The notes under the pieces: generated by a model
What the model saw: the letters and a program-made list of their open reading frames with translations, nothing else
Database searches by the model: none
Told to the model about the DNA's origin: nothing
Origin: a virus
Direction: 5' to 3' (one strand)
IMG/VR virus record: IMGVR_UViG_3300028400_000021
Span: 1 to 33,970 of that record
DNA length: 33,970 bases
Made by a program: the position numbers and the translations under genes
Shown: positions 332-30,535 of the stretch, in pieces
How positions within the stretch are numbered: the first letter of the stretch is position 1
Layout of the letters: each line of letters begins with the position of its first letter

Positions 332-545
332 TTATGTGAAATGGTGTAATCCCCCAAAAGAGGAAAGACGCAATAATTGGTTTACAGTGCCGCCTCCTCC
401 ACGGGATAAAATTAAAGAAGCACATAAATGGTGCGTTCAACAAGAGTCAAAAGGATGTTTTTACCACCATTATACAAATACAAGATGGTGGTTTCAATAT
501 GAAAAAGATGCAATAATGTTTGCAATAAAATTTAGTGGATTATGA
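312..545 (+). CDS. Small aromatic-rich phage protein, unknown function
   Basis: About 77 residues from a TTG at 312, or 69 from a GTG at 336; neither has a convincing SD, and a TAA at 309 closes the frame upstream. The GTG start would follow the previous stop directly and avoid overlap. The protein is rich in Trp, Tyr, His and Pro: a VPPPP stretch, HKWC, and a C-terminal TRWWFQYEKDAIMFAIKF. This compact style, with a Trp-Trp-Phe and a terminal amphipathic segment, resembles short conserved proteins of T4-like aquatic phages, but I cannot assign a role. Its stop overlaps the ATG of the next gene (ATGA). Confidence 0.6.
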   Translation: MQKNISNYVKWCNPPKEERRNNWFTVPPPPRDKIKEAHKWCVQQESKGCFYHHYTNTRWWFQYEKDAIMFAIKFSGL

Positions 546-889
546 TACTACCAAAAAAAATATTTGATCAAATTAGTTTCTGGGAACACACCGTAGAATT
601 TGGTCGTGGTTATAGAGTATGGGATGTTTTTACTATTCATTTTAAGCAATGGTGGAAATTTAGAAAAAAAATAAAAATACAAAGAAAAATTGATTTTGAC
701 GATCAAAACTCTAACCGATTTACTCATTCCCCAACACCTAGCGCCGCTGATTTATATAATCAACTATATAACTGGTCGATACAATCCTGGGACGAAAAAT
801 TAGATAGTATCCAACGTAAATATGAAAAAAATAAATCAGGGAATGTAATTTATCTTAAACAGAAACCTAAAAATCTTAATAATGACTAA
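542..889 (+). CDS. Hypothetical phage protein
   Basis: 115 residues. The N-terminal half is aromatic and basic (FWEHTVEFGRGYRVWDVF, then a KFRKKIKIQRKIDF stretch); the C-terminal half is polar with two Trp-containing helices (LYNQLYNWSIQSWDEKLDSI). There is no signal peptide or known catalytic motif. The ATG at 542 overlaps the upstream stop as ATGA, and its own end overlaps the next ORF by 8 bases, so it is almost certainly translated in series with its neighbours. Family not recognised. Confidence 0.65.
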   Translation: MILPKKIFDQISFWEHTVEFGRGYRVWDVFTIHFKQWWKFRKKIKIQRKIDFDDQNSNRFTHSPTPSAADLYNQLYNWSIQSWDEKLDSIQRKYEKNKSGNVIYLKQKPKNLNND

Positions 890-1130
890 AAACGAACATT
901 TTGAGAAAGCAAAAGAATTAATTGAGAAAAATTTTGATAAAGGTAAATCATATATTAGAGGGTCTTTATCTGTAAAAGATGATGGTCCTTTAAGCGAAAA
1001 GTTAAAAGGATTATTAAATGGCAATATCAAAAAGACGAAAAAGAAGGCAACGAGGAAAAAGAAAAGAACTACTCAAACGCAAAAAAGCCGAGACTTAGGC
1101 AAAACTACAAAGCCGAAAAAAAAGTCTTGA
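882..1130 (+). CDS. Small lysine-rich basic protein
   Basis: 82 residues. The first 45 are acidic to neutral and helical (EHFEKAKELIEKNFDKGKSY); the rest is extremely basic (KKTKKKATRKKKRTTQTQK ... TTKPKKKS), which suggests nucleic-acid binding or a packaged internal peptide, though that is inference. It starts inside the end of the previous gene. From 1018 onwards it shares DNA with a second ORF in the +1 frame that has a better SD, so its C-terminal 37 codons may be partly a by-product of A-rich sequence. An A8 run at 1116-1123 lies near its end, where an indel or slippage could join the frames. Confidence 0.5.
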   Translation: MTKNEHFEKAKELIEKNFDKGKSYIRGSLSVKDDGPLSEKLKGLLNGNIKKTKKKATRKKKRTTQTQKSRDLGKTTKPKKKS

Positions 1131-1278
1131 CCCAGGCACAATAAATTCCAGGGTTCGAGGAGTTGTTCCAAATTTGATAGCAAATAACATAGTCGGCGTA
1201 CAACCAATATCGATACCTAGTGGATTTTCGTTTAAAGATTTAGGTATAGTCGTGCATAAGGAGAAAAATTTCAAATAA
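1018..1278 (+). CDS. Amber-interrupted basic ORF with gp23 Gol-like segment
   Basis: ATG at 1018 has an excellent SD (AAAAGGA at 1004-1010, 7-base spacing). It encodes 26 very basic residues (MAISKRRKRRQRGKRKELLK ...) and meets TAG at 1096-1098. The same frame then stays open for 59 codons to TAA at 1276-1278. That second part reads as a genuine protein, containing VPNLIANNIVGVQP then PSGF, but has no ATG/GTG/TTG before a TTG at 1174. The motif closely resembles the gp23 major-capsid segment PNLIAFDICGVQP, the core of the T4 Gol region. The final TAA overlaps the next ATG (TAATG), typical of coupled functional genes. Alternatives: amber readthrough, a TTG start at 1174, a frameshift from the 882 ORF, or a recent nonsense mutation. 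Confidence 0.5.
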
Positions 1279-1556
1279 TGGAAACAAAAATAGAAATATG
1301 GAAACGAAAAATCCGTAATGGAAAAAGAAAACAAGCTGAGATGGTTGCAAGAAAAAAAGCAACAGAGCAGGAAGAAATTTGGCAACGATTATCAACTGTT
1401 AATAATCATACAAAAAAACGTAAACTCAAAGCAAGTTGGAAAGTTAATATATCTAATGATTTAACATCATTAAATTTTGATGCTATTAACGAAATAACAG
1501 ATGCACTTGCTGATGAAATTCTTAAAAACAGAATTAACGAGGTACTGAGAAAATGA
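1278..1556 (+). CDS. Small protein with gp23-like helical segment
   Basis: 92 residues. The N-terminal half is basic and helical. The C-terminal half, from KRKLKASWKVNISNDLTS to EILKNRINEVLRK, resembles a conserved stretch of T4 gp23 (SRQLKAAYSIELAQDL ... EIMLEINREVV): LKA, an aromatic, DL, DA, E, EI(L), IN and EV align in order with similar spacing. It follows an ORF that resembles a different, more N-terminal gp23 segment. The ATG overlaps the upstream stop (TAATG), and its own stop overlaps the HesB start (ATGA), so it is tightly coupled. I infer a small capsid-related or capsid-mimicking protein; no function is proven. Confidence 0.6.
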   Translation: METKIEIWKRKIRNGKRKQAEMVARKKATEQEEIWQRLSTVNNHTKKRKLKASWKVNISNDLTSLNFDAINEITDALADEILKNRINEVLRK

Positions 1557-1870
1557 ATTTAACAACCGAAGCTGAAAATCAGATTAAAAAATTACTAACT
1601 GAAAATGATGACGCAATAGCAATCCGTATTGGAATTATTGGTGGTGGATGTAGTGGATTTAGTTATGCATTTACTTTTGCCGATATGATTGAAGATGGAG
1701 ATGTCGTTGTCAATGATCATGATGCAATTGTAATTGTTGATCCATTAAGTTATCAATATCTTCAAGATGCTGAAATTGATTATGTAAAAAATATCGAAGG
1801 CGAACGATTTGTAATTAATAATCCTATTGTTTCAAATCAATGTGGTTGCGGAATGAGTTTTTCCATATAA
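1553..1870 (+). CDS. hesB: A-type Fe-S cluster carrier (HesB/IscA/ErpA family)
   Basis: 105 residues, the usual length for A-type carriers, which accept Fe-S clusters from scaffolds and hand them to apoproteins in the cytosol. The three ligand cysteines are present: Cys33 in GGGCSGFSY, and Cys97 and Cys99 in the C-terminal CGCGMSF. The MNLTTEAENQIKKLL opening is also typical. Members of this family are known passengers in aquatic T4-like phages, where they are thought to support host or phage Fe-S enzymes during infection. It is coupled by ATGA overlap to the preceding gene. Family assignment is firm; whether it is closer to ErpA or IscA cannot be told by eye. Confidence 0.92.
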   Translation: MNLTTEAENQIKKLLTENDDAIAIRIGIIGGGCSGFSYAFTFADMIEDGDVVVNDHDAIVIVDPLSYQYLQDAEIDYVKNIEGERFVINNPIVSNQCGCGMSFSI

Positions 1871-1875
1871 AGAAA

Positions 1876-2631
1876 ATGAATTGGAGACAAAAACAAAAAT
1901 TACATTCAACATCTATTCACACTGCTTGGGATGAAGAATTACCGTATAGTTATATGTACCCATCTAATACTACTGTTGATTGGGCCGATACCGACACTCC
2001 TGAAAATGCTCAATATATCAAAAATATAAAATATACTTTCAATGAACATGGATTTCGTAGTGATCCTTTTAATATAAAAAGTGATATAAATGTTTTGGCT
2101 GTTGGGTGTAGCATGACAGTTGGCGTTGGCGTTGATCAAAATGAAAATTGGCCAAATAGACTTAAACAGAAAATTATTGAAAAAACACAAAAATCAGTTT
2201 CAATGTGGAATTTAGCCACAAGCGGTGCAAGTTGCGATTATGTTTCGAGAATAATAGCAAAATCGATATCGAGTCTCCAACCAAATTTAATAGTAATATT
2301 CTGGCCCCCTATTTCAAGACTTGAAATTCCTACACAATATGAGGGTAAAATAATACAAGGATTCCCTCATATGGATATTTTTCCAAAAGAATTAGTTGAT
2401 GAAAAATATTTCATTTATAATTTTAGAAAAAATAAATTACTAGTTGATGCAATTAGTAAAAATTATGACATTCCTATAATATCAAATCCTGTTTTTGAAA
2501 TTGATCCCCTAGGGAGAAAGTTCCCTTTTATTAAAGATACCTCTGGACGAGATGGTCAACATCCAGGCCCAACCTGGCACGAAAATATAGCAAATTGGTA
2601 TTATCAATCCTGGCTCTATAACTATCTTTAA
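1876..2631 (+). CDS. SGNH/GDSL-like hydrolase
   Basis: 252 residues from ATG 1876; an earlier in-frame ATG at 1840 lies inside hesB and is less likely. SGNH hydrolase blocks are visible: block I GCSMTVGVG with nucleophile Ser79, an NLATSGAS stretch that may supply the oxyanion Gly/Asn region, and block V DGQHPG with Asp226 and His229 in the DxxH arrangement. A hydrophobic strand LIVIFWPP lies between. SGNH enzymes are esterases or acyl hydrolases; here the substrate could be a surface polysaccharide acyl group, but that is inference. There is no signal peptide, so it acts in the cytoplasm or as a virion part. It is the last gene before a late promoter and structured leader. Confidence 0.78.
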   Translation: MNWRQKQKLHSTSIHTAWDEELPYSYMYPSNTTVDWADTDTPENAQYIKNIKYTFNEHGFRSDPFNIKSDINVLAVGCSMTVGVGVDQNENWPNRLKQKIIEKTQKSVSMWNLATSGASCDYVSRIIAKSISSLQPNLIVIFWPPISRLEIPTQYEGKIIQGFPHMDIFPKELVDEKYFIYNFRKNKLLVDAISKNYDIPIISNPVFEIDPLGRKFPFIKDTSGRDGQHPGPTWHENIANWYYQSWLYNYL

Positions 2632-28808: not shown

Positions 28809-28936
28809 ATTGTCTCCATATATATATATTTCTCGTGACCACAATCCCAAATTCTTAAATAACCATTTTTCTTTGATATATTCTTGTTGCATACGATTAT
28901 TTAAAGAGGAAGATATTTTTCATATATTTTTTTCAG

Positions 28937-28978: not shown

Positions 28979-30535
28979 ATGAAATGTAAGATATGTCAAA
29001 AAGAATTAAAAATGATTACAAACACTCATCTGAAATTGCACGGCATTACAATCGACGAGTATAAAAAGAAATATGGAGATTTAGTTGACGATGAATTTCG
29101 GAAGCTAAAAAGCCAGCAAAGTTCCGGAAAGAATAATCCAAATTTTGGAAAGAAGCATGATGCTAAAACCAGAAAAATCATCAGCGAAAAACTCAAAGGG
29201 CGTGAAGCCTATAATAAAGGCATACCAATGACTGAGGAACAGAAACAAAAATTAAGTCAAAAAGCAAAAGAGAGAAATGAAATTTGGAAAGAAACCAATA
29301 GTCATCCCCGGACAGGAAGAAAGCATACCGAAGAAACTAAACAAAAAATTCGTGAAAAACGAAAGAAACAAATAATCAAACCCGAATCAGTTCAAAAAGC
29401 AATCGAAACAAAACGTCGTAACGGATACAATTTGGCATTTTTCAAAGGCAAGAAACACACTGCCGAAACCAAAAAAATTATCAGCCAAAAATCAAAAGAA
29501 TCTAATAAATTGCGATCGCAAAAAGCTCTTGAAGAAACAGCTCAGCGTATTTCTAAATATGGATATTCAATTGTCAAAGTTGACAGCATCAATGCCACTA
29601 TAAAATGCGAAAATGGTCATGAGTTTACTTTTACGCGACAATATCTAACTGAATCAAAATTTAAAAAAGAATTATGTCCCGAATGTTACCCAAGAGAATT
29701 CTATATTAGTAAAGGAGAATCGGAAATAGCAAATTTTCTAAGACAATTTACAGAAGTAATTCAAAACACCAGAAAAATAATTCCACCAAAGGAGATAGAC
29801 ATTTATCTACCAGAATACAATATCGCCGTTGAGTATAATGGTTTATATTGGCACTCAGAAAAATTCAAAGAAAAAAATAATCATTATGAAAAATCACAAA
29901 AATGCTATAAAAAAGGTATCAAGTTAATTCAAATTTTTGAAGATGAATGGATTAATAATCCTGAAATTGTTAAATCACGATTGCTATCGTATATGAATAA
30001 AAATAAAACCATATATGCCCGAAAATGCAGTATTAAGGAAATTAATTCTAAATTAGCGAATGAATTTATCAATAAAAATCATATTCAGGGTCGAGGGCGA
30101 AGTAACGTCAGAATTGGATTATTTTATAAAGATCGACTTGTTGCTGTTATGACATTCCTGAATGGCGACAAATCAAAATCGTTAAACGGTTGGGAATTAA
30201 ATAGGTATTGTTCAATTATTGGATACAATGTAGTTGGTGGTGCGTCAAAACTTTTCAAATATTTTATTGAAAAGTATTCACCTGATCAAATTACGACGTT
30301 TGCAGATTTACGATGGGCATTTGGATCAAAATTTTATGAAAAATTAGGTTTCTCATTCGTATATAATTCGCCGCCAAATTATTGGTACGTTTACCCAAAT
30401 GAAATGAAACGCCGCCATAGATTTTCATTGCGTAAAAAAGATACGGTATTATCTGAGCGAGAACTTCGTGATTCTGAAGGATATATTCGAATATATGATT
30501 GCGGGCACGCCAAATATATATGGCATAGAAGATAA
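28979..30535 (+). CDS. Free-standing homing endonuclease (NUMOD3 repeats, Vsr-like core)
   Basis: 518 residues. Residues 1-35 form a MucR/Ros-like zinc finger (Cys3, Cys6, His17, His21: MKCKICQKELKMITNTHLKL). Three NUMOD3-type DNA-binding repeats follow (NPNFGKKHDAKTRKIISEKL, TGRKHTEETKQKIREKRKK, FKGKKHTAETKKIISQKS). Around residues 272-293 PKEIDIYLPEYNIAVEYNG then LYWHSE, followed by GIKLIQIFEDEW, is a Vsr/EDxHD-type nuclease core. The C-terminal 170 residues (KNHIQGRGRSNVRIGLFYKD, GGASKLFKYFIEKY, FYEKLGFSFVYNSPPNYWYV) look like a GNAT-type fold used as an extra DNA-recognition part. It sits between gp18 and gp19 and is flanked by 39-base terminator repeats. Such enzymes cut uninserted genomes to spread their own gene. 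Confidence 0.85.
   Translation: MKCKICQKELKMITNTHLKLHGITIDEYKKKYGDLVDDEFRKLKSQQSSGKNNPNFGKKHDAKTRKIISEKLKGREAYNKGIPMTEEQKQKLSQKAKERNEIWKETNSHPRTGRKHTEETKQKIREKRKKQIIKPESVQKAIETKRRNGYNLAFFKGKKHTAETKKIISQKSKESNKLRSQKALEETAQRISKYGYSIVKVDSINATIKCENGHEFTFTRQYLTESKFKKELCPECYPREFYISKGESEIANFLRQFTEVIQNTRKIIPPKEIDIYLPEYNIAVEYNGLYWHSEKFKEKNNHYEKSQKCYKKGIKLIQIFEDEWINNPEIVKSRLLSYMNKNKTIYARKCSIKEINSKLANEFINKNHIQGRGRSNVRIGLFYKDRLVAVMTFLNGDKSKSLNGWELNRYCSIIGYNVVGGASKLFKYFIEKYSPDQITTFADLRWAFGSKFYEKLGFSFVYNSPPNYWYVYPNEMKRRHRFSLRKKDTVLSERELRDSEGYIRIYDCGHAKYIWHRR

Follow-up and report, generated by a model that had tools for sequence, protein, structure and literature searches.

The Gol segment of the T4 major capsid protein gp23 binds domains II and III of EF-Tu, is described as the best conserved stretch of that protein and activates Lit rather than blocking it (PMC3014915). 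A section of another report describes triggering of CapRel by capsid proteins and cites Gol as a trigger of Lit (PMC9712102). The Gol peptide of T4 is internal to gp23. At the locus described here the same sequence region, with the same spacing, is encoded separately and behind a basic N-terminus, and related ORFs carry other segments.

Truncated dominant-negative microproteins each duplicate a small portion of a larger protein and could compete with that parent. To our knowledge, a W..L motif shared over unrelated parents in phage gene clusters is not part of the microprotein concept. The pieces considered here share homology with gp23 (PF07068, PHROG 138) in its N-arm/Gol, spine-helix or C-terminal strand region, but they are short and have foreign N-termini, and full-length gp23 is encoded by a separate gene in the 344-kb record G032, in G042 and in the cultured Sinorhizobium phage Phosso. 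The presence of a further gp23-like gene beside the first also recalls the T4 vertex protein gp24 and other gp23 paralogs, among them a 352-aa paralog of Stenotrophomonas phage RAS14 (OP752703, 178501-179559) that is annotated hypothetical and is possibly a vertex protein; these are long, at about 350 aa or more, in contrast to the small modular pieces treated here. No description of such chimeras was found in the open literature, as judged by titles and the beginnings of abstracts, and we rate the arrangement as outside the kinds known to us.

Two gp23 segments in the window

The window, that is, the whole stretch of 33,970 b that was analysed, is an IMG/VR virus record with a tail module of T4 type. 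Over the best segment the sheath of the window is 72% identical to that of G032, and the kin of the window include Atu_ph07, Phosso, PA5oct and Vibrio phage 2.275. The genes of the locus discussed below lie on the plus strand. An earlier note on this DNA had pointed to a copy of the T4 Gol motif in the 59-aa frame at 1099..1278, and both the similarity and the T4 motif as given there, with its spacing, proved right: the frame (1099-1275) reads ...VRGVVPNLIANNIVGVQPISIPSG..., T4 gp23 (NC_000866) reads ...AIPNLIAFDICGVQPMNSPTG..., and the core PNLIA...GVQP...P[ST]G is common to both at identical spacing. The frame contains VPNLIANNIVGVQPISIPSG and has a gp23 match at 1153-1236; it covers positions 11-37 of 376 in the Pfam Gp23 profile with E 1.5e-4 and 21.7 bits, below the curated cut-off of 24.4. 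The frame also matches PHROG 138 (major head protein) at E 3.8e-4 and scores 28.9 bits on a custom gp23 HMM made from 23 full or near-full sequences, on which the best of 5000 shuffles reached 7.2. The observation is thus confirmed and is larger than described, since a second gp23-like ORF and the continuation of the Gol frame from an upstream start had both been missed.

The second gene, ORF2 (1278..1556, 92 aa), combines an RKIRNG-type basic helix, a W..L motif and a gp23 spine-helix segment (RKLKASWKVNISNDLTSLNFDAINEITDALADEILKNRINEVLRK, 1419..1553), and its reading frame is intact. Its W..L variant, IWQRL (1377..1391), fits a looser form of the pattern and fails the strict one owing to the Q. 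Positions 1278-1553 match the Pfam Gp23 profile above the cut-off (E 3.1e-6, 27.3 bits, profile 107-193 of 376) and score 25.4 bits on the custom HMM. Chance similarity to gp23 is ruled out, none of 5000 shuffles reaching the score of either ORF; these two alone among the 238 window frames of at least 45 aa exceed 0.6 bits on the custom HMM. Together they fall far short of a full HK97-type capsid subunit, which has about 390 aa or more. In a low-confidence AlphaFold model of ORF2 (pLDDT 73, pTM 0.34) a long helix is predicted at residues 4-42, ending just past the W..L motif, and a second at 67-91, within the gp23 segment. A tblastn search of phages with ORF2 at E 0.01 returned no match, and no locus was confirmed when viral contigs were searched with it. 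The corresponding contig search with window ORF1 gave 45 loci, in all of which the match lies in a frame of 103-562 aa that reads as gp23, with the frame cut by the locus end in two of the 45.

The gene to which the Gol frame belongs begins at ATG 1018, with AAAGGA 7 nt upstream, and its basic N-terminal module (MAISKRRKRRQRGKRKELLKRKKAET, 1018..1098) runs in frame into the TAG at 1096-1098. The Gol piece of G032 is a single ORF that starts MTSVRRRRRQRGKRK...LETWNKLTNV, and the window amber aligns with a tryptophan codon in G032 and G028, so that in window ORF1 the stop codon stands at the tryptophan position of the W..L motif. The tight stop/start coupling that had been held to argue against decay therefore loses its force, the upstream stop being an amber within a gene that relatives keep open. 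It also follows that the Gol part in the window needs readthrough or re-initiation. Without readthrough the product would be a 26-aa basic peptide; re-initiation could use TTG 1174, the sole ATG, GTG or TTG start listed in the frame, which lies within the motif, has GAGGAG about 11 nt upstream and would open a 34-aa ORF (1174..1278) containing only the second half of the motif. The window copy may accordingly be broken or depend on readthrough, and it looks newly interrupted; the amber may be genuine, of recent origin or an error of assembly. Decoding of TAG as an amino acid throughout was rejected: three of the 35 window ORFs counted end in TAG, and as two of these are ORFs other than the Gol ORF, nothing suggests reassignment. 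A search of the window for tRNA genes found none.

The anchor gene upstream (542..889, 115 aa, MILPK...) is 52 and 47% identical to its counterparts in G032 and G028, where it lies directly 5' of the Gol gene. A Lys-rich ORF of 82 aa (882..1130) reads in a different frame across the beginning of the Gol gene; it has no family match in Pfam and PHROG profile searches and may or may not be a gene. Downstream lie an IscA/HesB-like gene (1553..1870), 57% identical to the gene at the same position in G032, and an SGNH/GDSL-like gene (1876..2631), which follows the cluster also in G032 and in the loci L125 and L203; both are found inside the structural region. Rfam gave no matches in the window. Two side observations concern other parts of it. 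Positions 312-545, together with G032 259671-259432 and others, form a small family with ..HKWC..WWF..DAI.FA.KF, represented by several frames in G032 and its kin with weak similarity. The large ORF after the sheath (28979-30535) has endonuclease-like repeats; PA5oct has a Hef-like homing endonuclease at that place, and a 41-aa minus-strand frame at 28900 resembles the C-terminus of the window ORF (41% over 27 aa, E 1.7e-5).

gp23 pieces in related phages

The idea of a separately encoded gp23 piece is borne out by related phages, as stand-alone pieces of at least 20 bits occur two each in G032, G040 (locus L201), G042 (locus L203) and Phosso. The gp23 pieces are proteins of 43-205 aa with 15-60 gp23 residues. 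When 21 candidate proteins were scored on the custom HMM, eight reached at least 20 bits and 13 had scores that none of 1000 shuffles attained; seven were negative, all three G028 candidates included, and the score of L203 5655-5933 was reached by one shuffle. By the Pfam cut-off, G032 has two separate pieces besides its full gp23, G040 two, G042 one and Phosso two (hmmscan), and G044 has one piece below it. G040 (18.6 kb) and the window are fragments in which no full gp23 of their own was seen.

Among 32 sheath-bearing records from the family search gp23 was found in two, G032 and G028, of which G028 has the full gp23 only; G028 and an identical stretch, L099, keep the N-terminal modules with no recognisable gp23 piece. 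Stand-alone pieces were present in three of 30 gp23 or cluster records and absent from 27, many of the 30 being short fragments, though one record of 147,553 b also has none. Nine of 11 named phages have the capsid gene alone, the others being RAS14 with its paralog and Phosso with two extra pieces. In Phosso (PV764938) the Gol piece is joined to collagen-like repeats in a frame extending upstream of XYS97433.1 (L235 4239-4853), and a gp23 C-terminal piece is fused to another small domain (XYS97328.1, L236 2924-3304). Both genes are annotated hypothetical, and the two pieces lie at separate places and have no W..L motif. Four short PHROG families of unannotated function (28511, 26053, 13936 and 14392; 43-77 positions) match different pieces weakly and may hold stand-alone capsid pieces of other phages; PHROG 26053 gave two weak matches in 13 records (E 0.02 and 0.048).

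The Gol core is retained in the window, G032, L203 and Phosso, and L201 retains ...IAGVQPMAEPVG without the PNLIA half. The abrupt end of similarity after PSG, which had been remarked on in the window, holds for that copy and not for L201 and Phosso, where similarity to gp23 runs on past the equivalent point. The two pieces stand in gp23 order in the window and G032, which would suit a single gp23 or gp24-like paralog that has decayed and split into fragments, as would a loose search with ORF2 (E up to 10), in which the 30 matches listed are mostly capsid vertex or head proteins. The order is, however, reversed in L201 and mixed in L203, and a piece order that differs between phages speaks against one decaying capsid gene. 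G042 moreover has several spine pieces, and the N-terminal parts are not gp23 and are common to other ORFs. Piece order and foreign N-termini largely refute the decay of a single gp23 copy, including the simple relic considered in the earlier note, and we regard it as exceedingly improbable.

The earlier note had named two outcomes that would refute it. The first, a lack of gp23 similarity in profile searches, is contradicted by the matches above, and the second, random decay in relatives, is not seen for ORF2. Its orthologs in the window, G032, L201 and L125 share the layout MxExxI...RKIRNGxRKQ, then W with L three residues on, then the spine segment, the spine match of L125 being weak (8.8 bits). 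In all six pairs of these four phages pN (0.39-0.50) is below pS (0.68-0.96), with synonymous sites saturated or nearly so; for the spine segment alone the values are 0.36-0.42 and 0.62-0.82 (three pairs). This supports the view that ORF2 is under constraint. Pairs of Gol frames (24-34% identity) gave pN 0.44-0.52 and pS 0.71-0.83, which lends weaker support to constraint on these than on ORF2. As to origin, a tree of the spine segment (54 columns) neither rejected (p 0.355) nor showed a single clade of the four pieces. The G032 spine piece is 55% identical over 44 aa to a cyanophage gp23 vs 48% to the gp23 of G032 itself, only a hint, given the few residues, that it may be nearer the former.

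An apparent family of small chimeric proteins

Sequence comparison places the locus in an apparent family of small phage chimeras. In these, a basic N-terminal stretch is typically followed by a W..L motif, after which comes part of a phage core protein, either a short segment or a domain. The N-terminal parts recur in ORFs with other or unrecognised C-terminal parts: one RKIRNG-W..L module precedes spine, P-loop-like and polymerase-motif-like parts, and the RKIRNG module stands before unrecognised parts in G028, L201 (723 and 998) and L202. A W..L motif upstream of a core-protein segment is found in window ORF2, by the looser pattern, and in several ORFs of G032 and G042. The segments recognised by profiles are the gp23 N-arm/Gol, spine helix and C-terminal strand, the late sigma factor gp55, the tail-sheath C-terminus and a DnaB-like P-loop. 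Late-sigma ORFs with the motif occur in G032 and L203 (phrog_234, E 1.1e-16 and 7.9e-22), a sheath C-terminus ORF lies outside the cluster in G042 (71300; phrog_10581, E 9.1e-12), a DnaB P-loop ORF is present in G032 (phrog_19, E 4.8e-5) and a gp23 C-terminal strand ORF in L203 (Pfam E 0.037; 16.2 bits on the custom HMM). A role specific to Gol or Lit, as first proposed, finds no support in such a set, in which ORFs of the same clusters carry the other gp23 segment, late sigma and the P-loop, and in G042 the sheath segment is found elsewhere.

Other members are less certain. L203 4144-4455 joins the RKIRNG module to a P-loop-like part with no significant profile (divDNAB, E 0.14), and in L122 one ORF joins a polymerase-motif-like to a P-loop-like part, of which the P-loop match is weak (phrog_19, E 0.069). 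Similarity is also weak for the polymerase and fibre pieces and for some of the spine pieces, with blastp E values of 0.019 and 0.031 or scores of 7-9 bits: L203 4998-5231 joins the module to a polymerase motif-A-like part (E 0.019 to its own polymerase), and spine-like pieces at G032 255810-255610 and L203 7299-7544 score 8.3 and 7.8 bits, Pfam favouring the unrelated PF06819 (E 4.3e-4) over gp23 for the latter. An 85-aa plus-strand frame far from the cluster in G042 (57577-57831) has a weak spine match of 7.0 bits, reached by none of 1000 shuffles. Searches of genome contigs with query A7 confirmed none of 106 stretches, and a search with the W-sigma alignment found only G042 and G032 themselves.

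The motif, summarised as [VIM]W[DNEK][KR]L-type, is present in many small ORFs of G032 and G042, which cluster between the gp23 and fibre genes. The strict pattern [VIM]W[DNEK][RK]L has 18 matches in G032 frames of at least 40 aa, 13 of them within 4.6 kb (255.8-260.3 kb); with H allowed, there are 13 matches in G042 frames of at least 45 aa, nine in the cluster (9.6 kb), and two of the four outside carry a sheath or gp23 segment. The pattern was set after the cluster had been seen, so that binomial values of 3e-21 and 1e-10 make the enrichment look stronger than it is. G042 provides the less biased count, although the inclusion of H followed its observation in that genome. Matches to large proteins of the same genome at E 0.05 are also enriched in the cluster frames, with 5/34 vs 30/1517 elsewhere in G042 (p 7.6e-4) and 5/31 vs 58/2199 in G032 (p 1.5e-3), the 'elsewhere' counts being raised by frames truncated at the borders of the stretches used; at E 0.001 the counts are 2/34 vs 3/1517 and 3/31 vs 10/2199. 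A family of tagged core-protein fragments thus appears well supported in outline, strongly for the gp23, late-sigma, sheath and G032 DnaB segments and weakly for polymerase and fibre.

The main rival to a functional family is gene-birth debris, whereby recombination near gp23 and fibre genes would repeatedly make small ORFs out of parts of existing genes behind a re-used 5' module, most of them functionless and quickly turned over, with a few kept for a time. The flanking of the cluster by gp23 and fibre genes suits this explanation, as do the fast turnover, with G028 lacking gp23 pieces, the amber codon in the window Gol copy and the scatter of further pieces in G042 (57577, 71300 and 156939). 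Debris would not, however, be expected to keep the ORF2 frame and sequence in four phages while synonymous sites saturate, and the motifs of highest conservation lie in the segments that were kept, though profile methods see only those. We consider debris somewhat unlikely as an account of the whole.

T4 packages internal proteins with its DNA. Small basic proteins of the present kind might similarly be virion or prohead components, their gp23 segments letting them co-assemble with the capsid lattice or core and be packaged with DNA; their basic N-termini, their N-arm and spine segments and their position just after gp23 and before the fibres would all agree with this. Late-sigma, P-loop and sheath segments in proteins of like design would be left unexplained, however, and no match to the late-promoter pattern TATAAATA lies near the locus (three in the whole window vs 5.3 expected). 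We consider a structural role decidedly unlikely.

Possible roles of the chimeras

We tentatively read the chimeric family as one whose members could mimic the parent proteins or compete with them. The genes would be expressed during infection, and each segment would be bound by the normal partner of that part of its parent, which for Gol would be EF-Tu together with any sensor of the capsid, and a second partner would be recruited or held by the basic helix and the W..L motif. Because Gol binds EF-Tu and capsid triggers CapRel, a separately encoded Gol or spine segment could compete with gp23 for EF-Tu, for a sensor or for partners in assembly, and other segments might compete likewise for the partners of their own parents. 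Such a decoy or competitor would have one of three effects: protection of the phage from a sensor, adjustment of assembly, or impairment of a T4-type phage in the same cell. Counting against mimicry are the amber in the window Gol gene, G028 and L099 without pieces, and the 27 of 30 records without one. The earlier interpretation, which had offered a decoy or an assembly competitor among its options, is thus partly supported.

Narrower and broader versions can be weighed in the same terms. A free Gol peptide acting on Lit or EF-Tu as decoy or antagonist would agree with retention of the core in the window, G032, L203 and Phosso and with the EF-Tu binding described in part of PMC3014915. It would account for only one of several pieces, however, and L201 lacks the PNLIA half, the window copy lies behind an amber and T4 Gol, in the same part of that source, activates Lit rather than blocking it; we hold it to be very improbable. 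In the broader version, tagged mimics on a basic-helix and W..L handle would form an arsenal, dispersed and subject to shuffling, in some jumbo phages of the T4 superfamily. Their segments would come from capsid, sheath, late sigma, helicase and perhaps polymerase and fibres, and they would serve as interchangeable decoys or poisons against competing T4-type phages or against host sensors that recognise such conserved segments. The hint that the G032 spine piece may be nearer to a cyanophage gp23 would agree with this. We consider the broader version rather unlikely as a whole.

If the chimeras are functional, these phages would maintain a set of short mimics of the motifs that they conserve most, joined to a common handle. 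Such a set would suggest that host sensors or rival phages recognise the motifs, and it would supply ready-made peptides with which to identify those sensors or rivals. The W..L handle would be a defined bait for a partner, and as Phosso is cultured, part of the idea can be tested at once. Even as by-products, the clusters show that phage genes are put together from fragments placed behind a module that is used repeatedly.

In Vibrio phage 2.275, gp23 is likewise followed by several small proteins in a row (L117 12990-15499), a number of them ending ..T[YW]ELL, which constitute a different small-protein array at the equivalent place.
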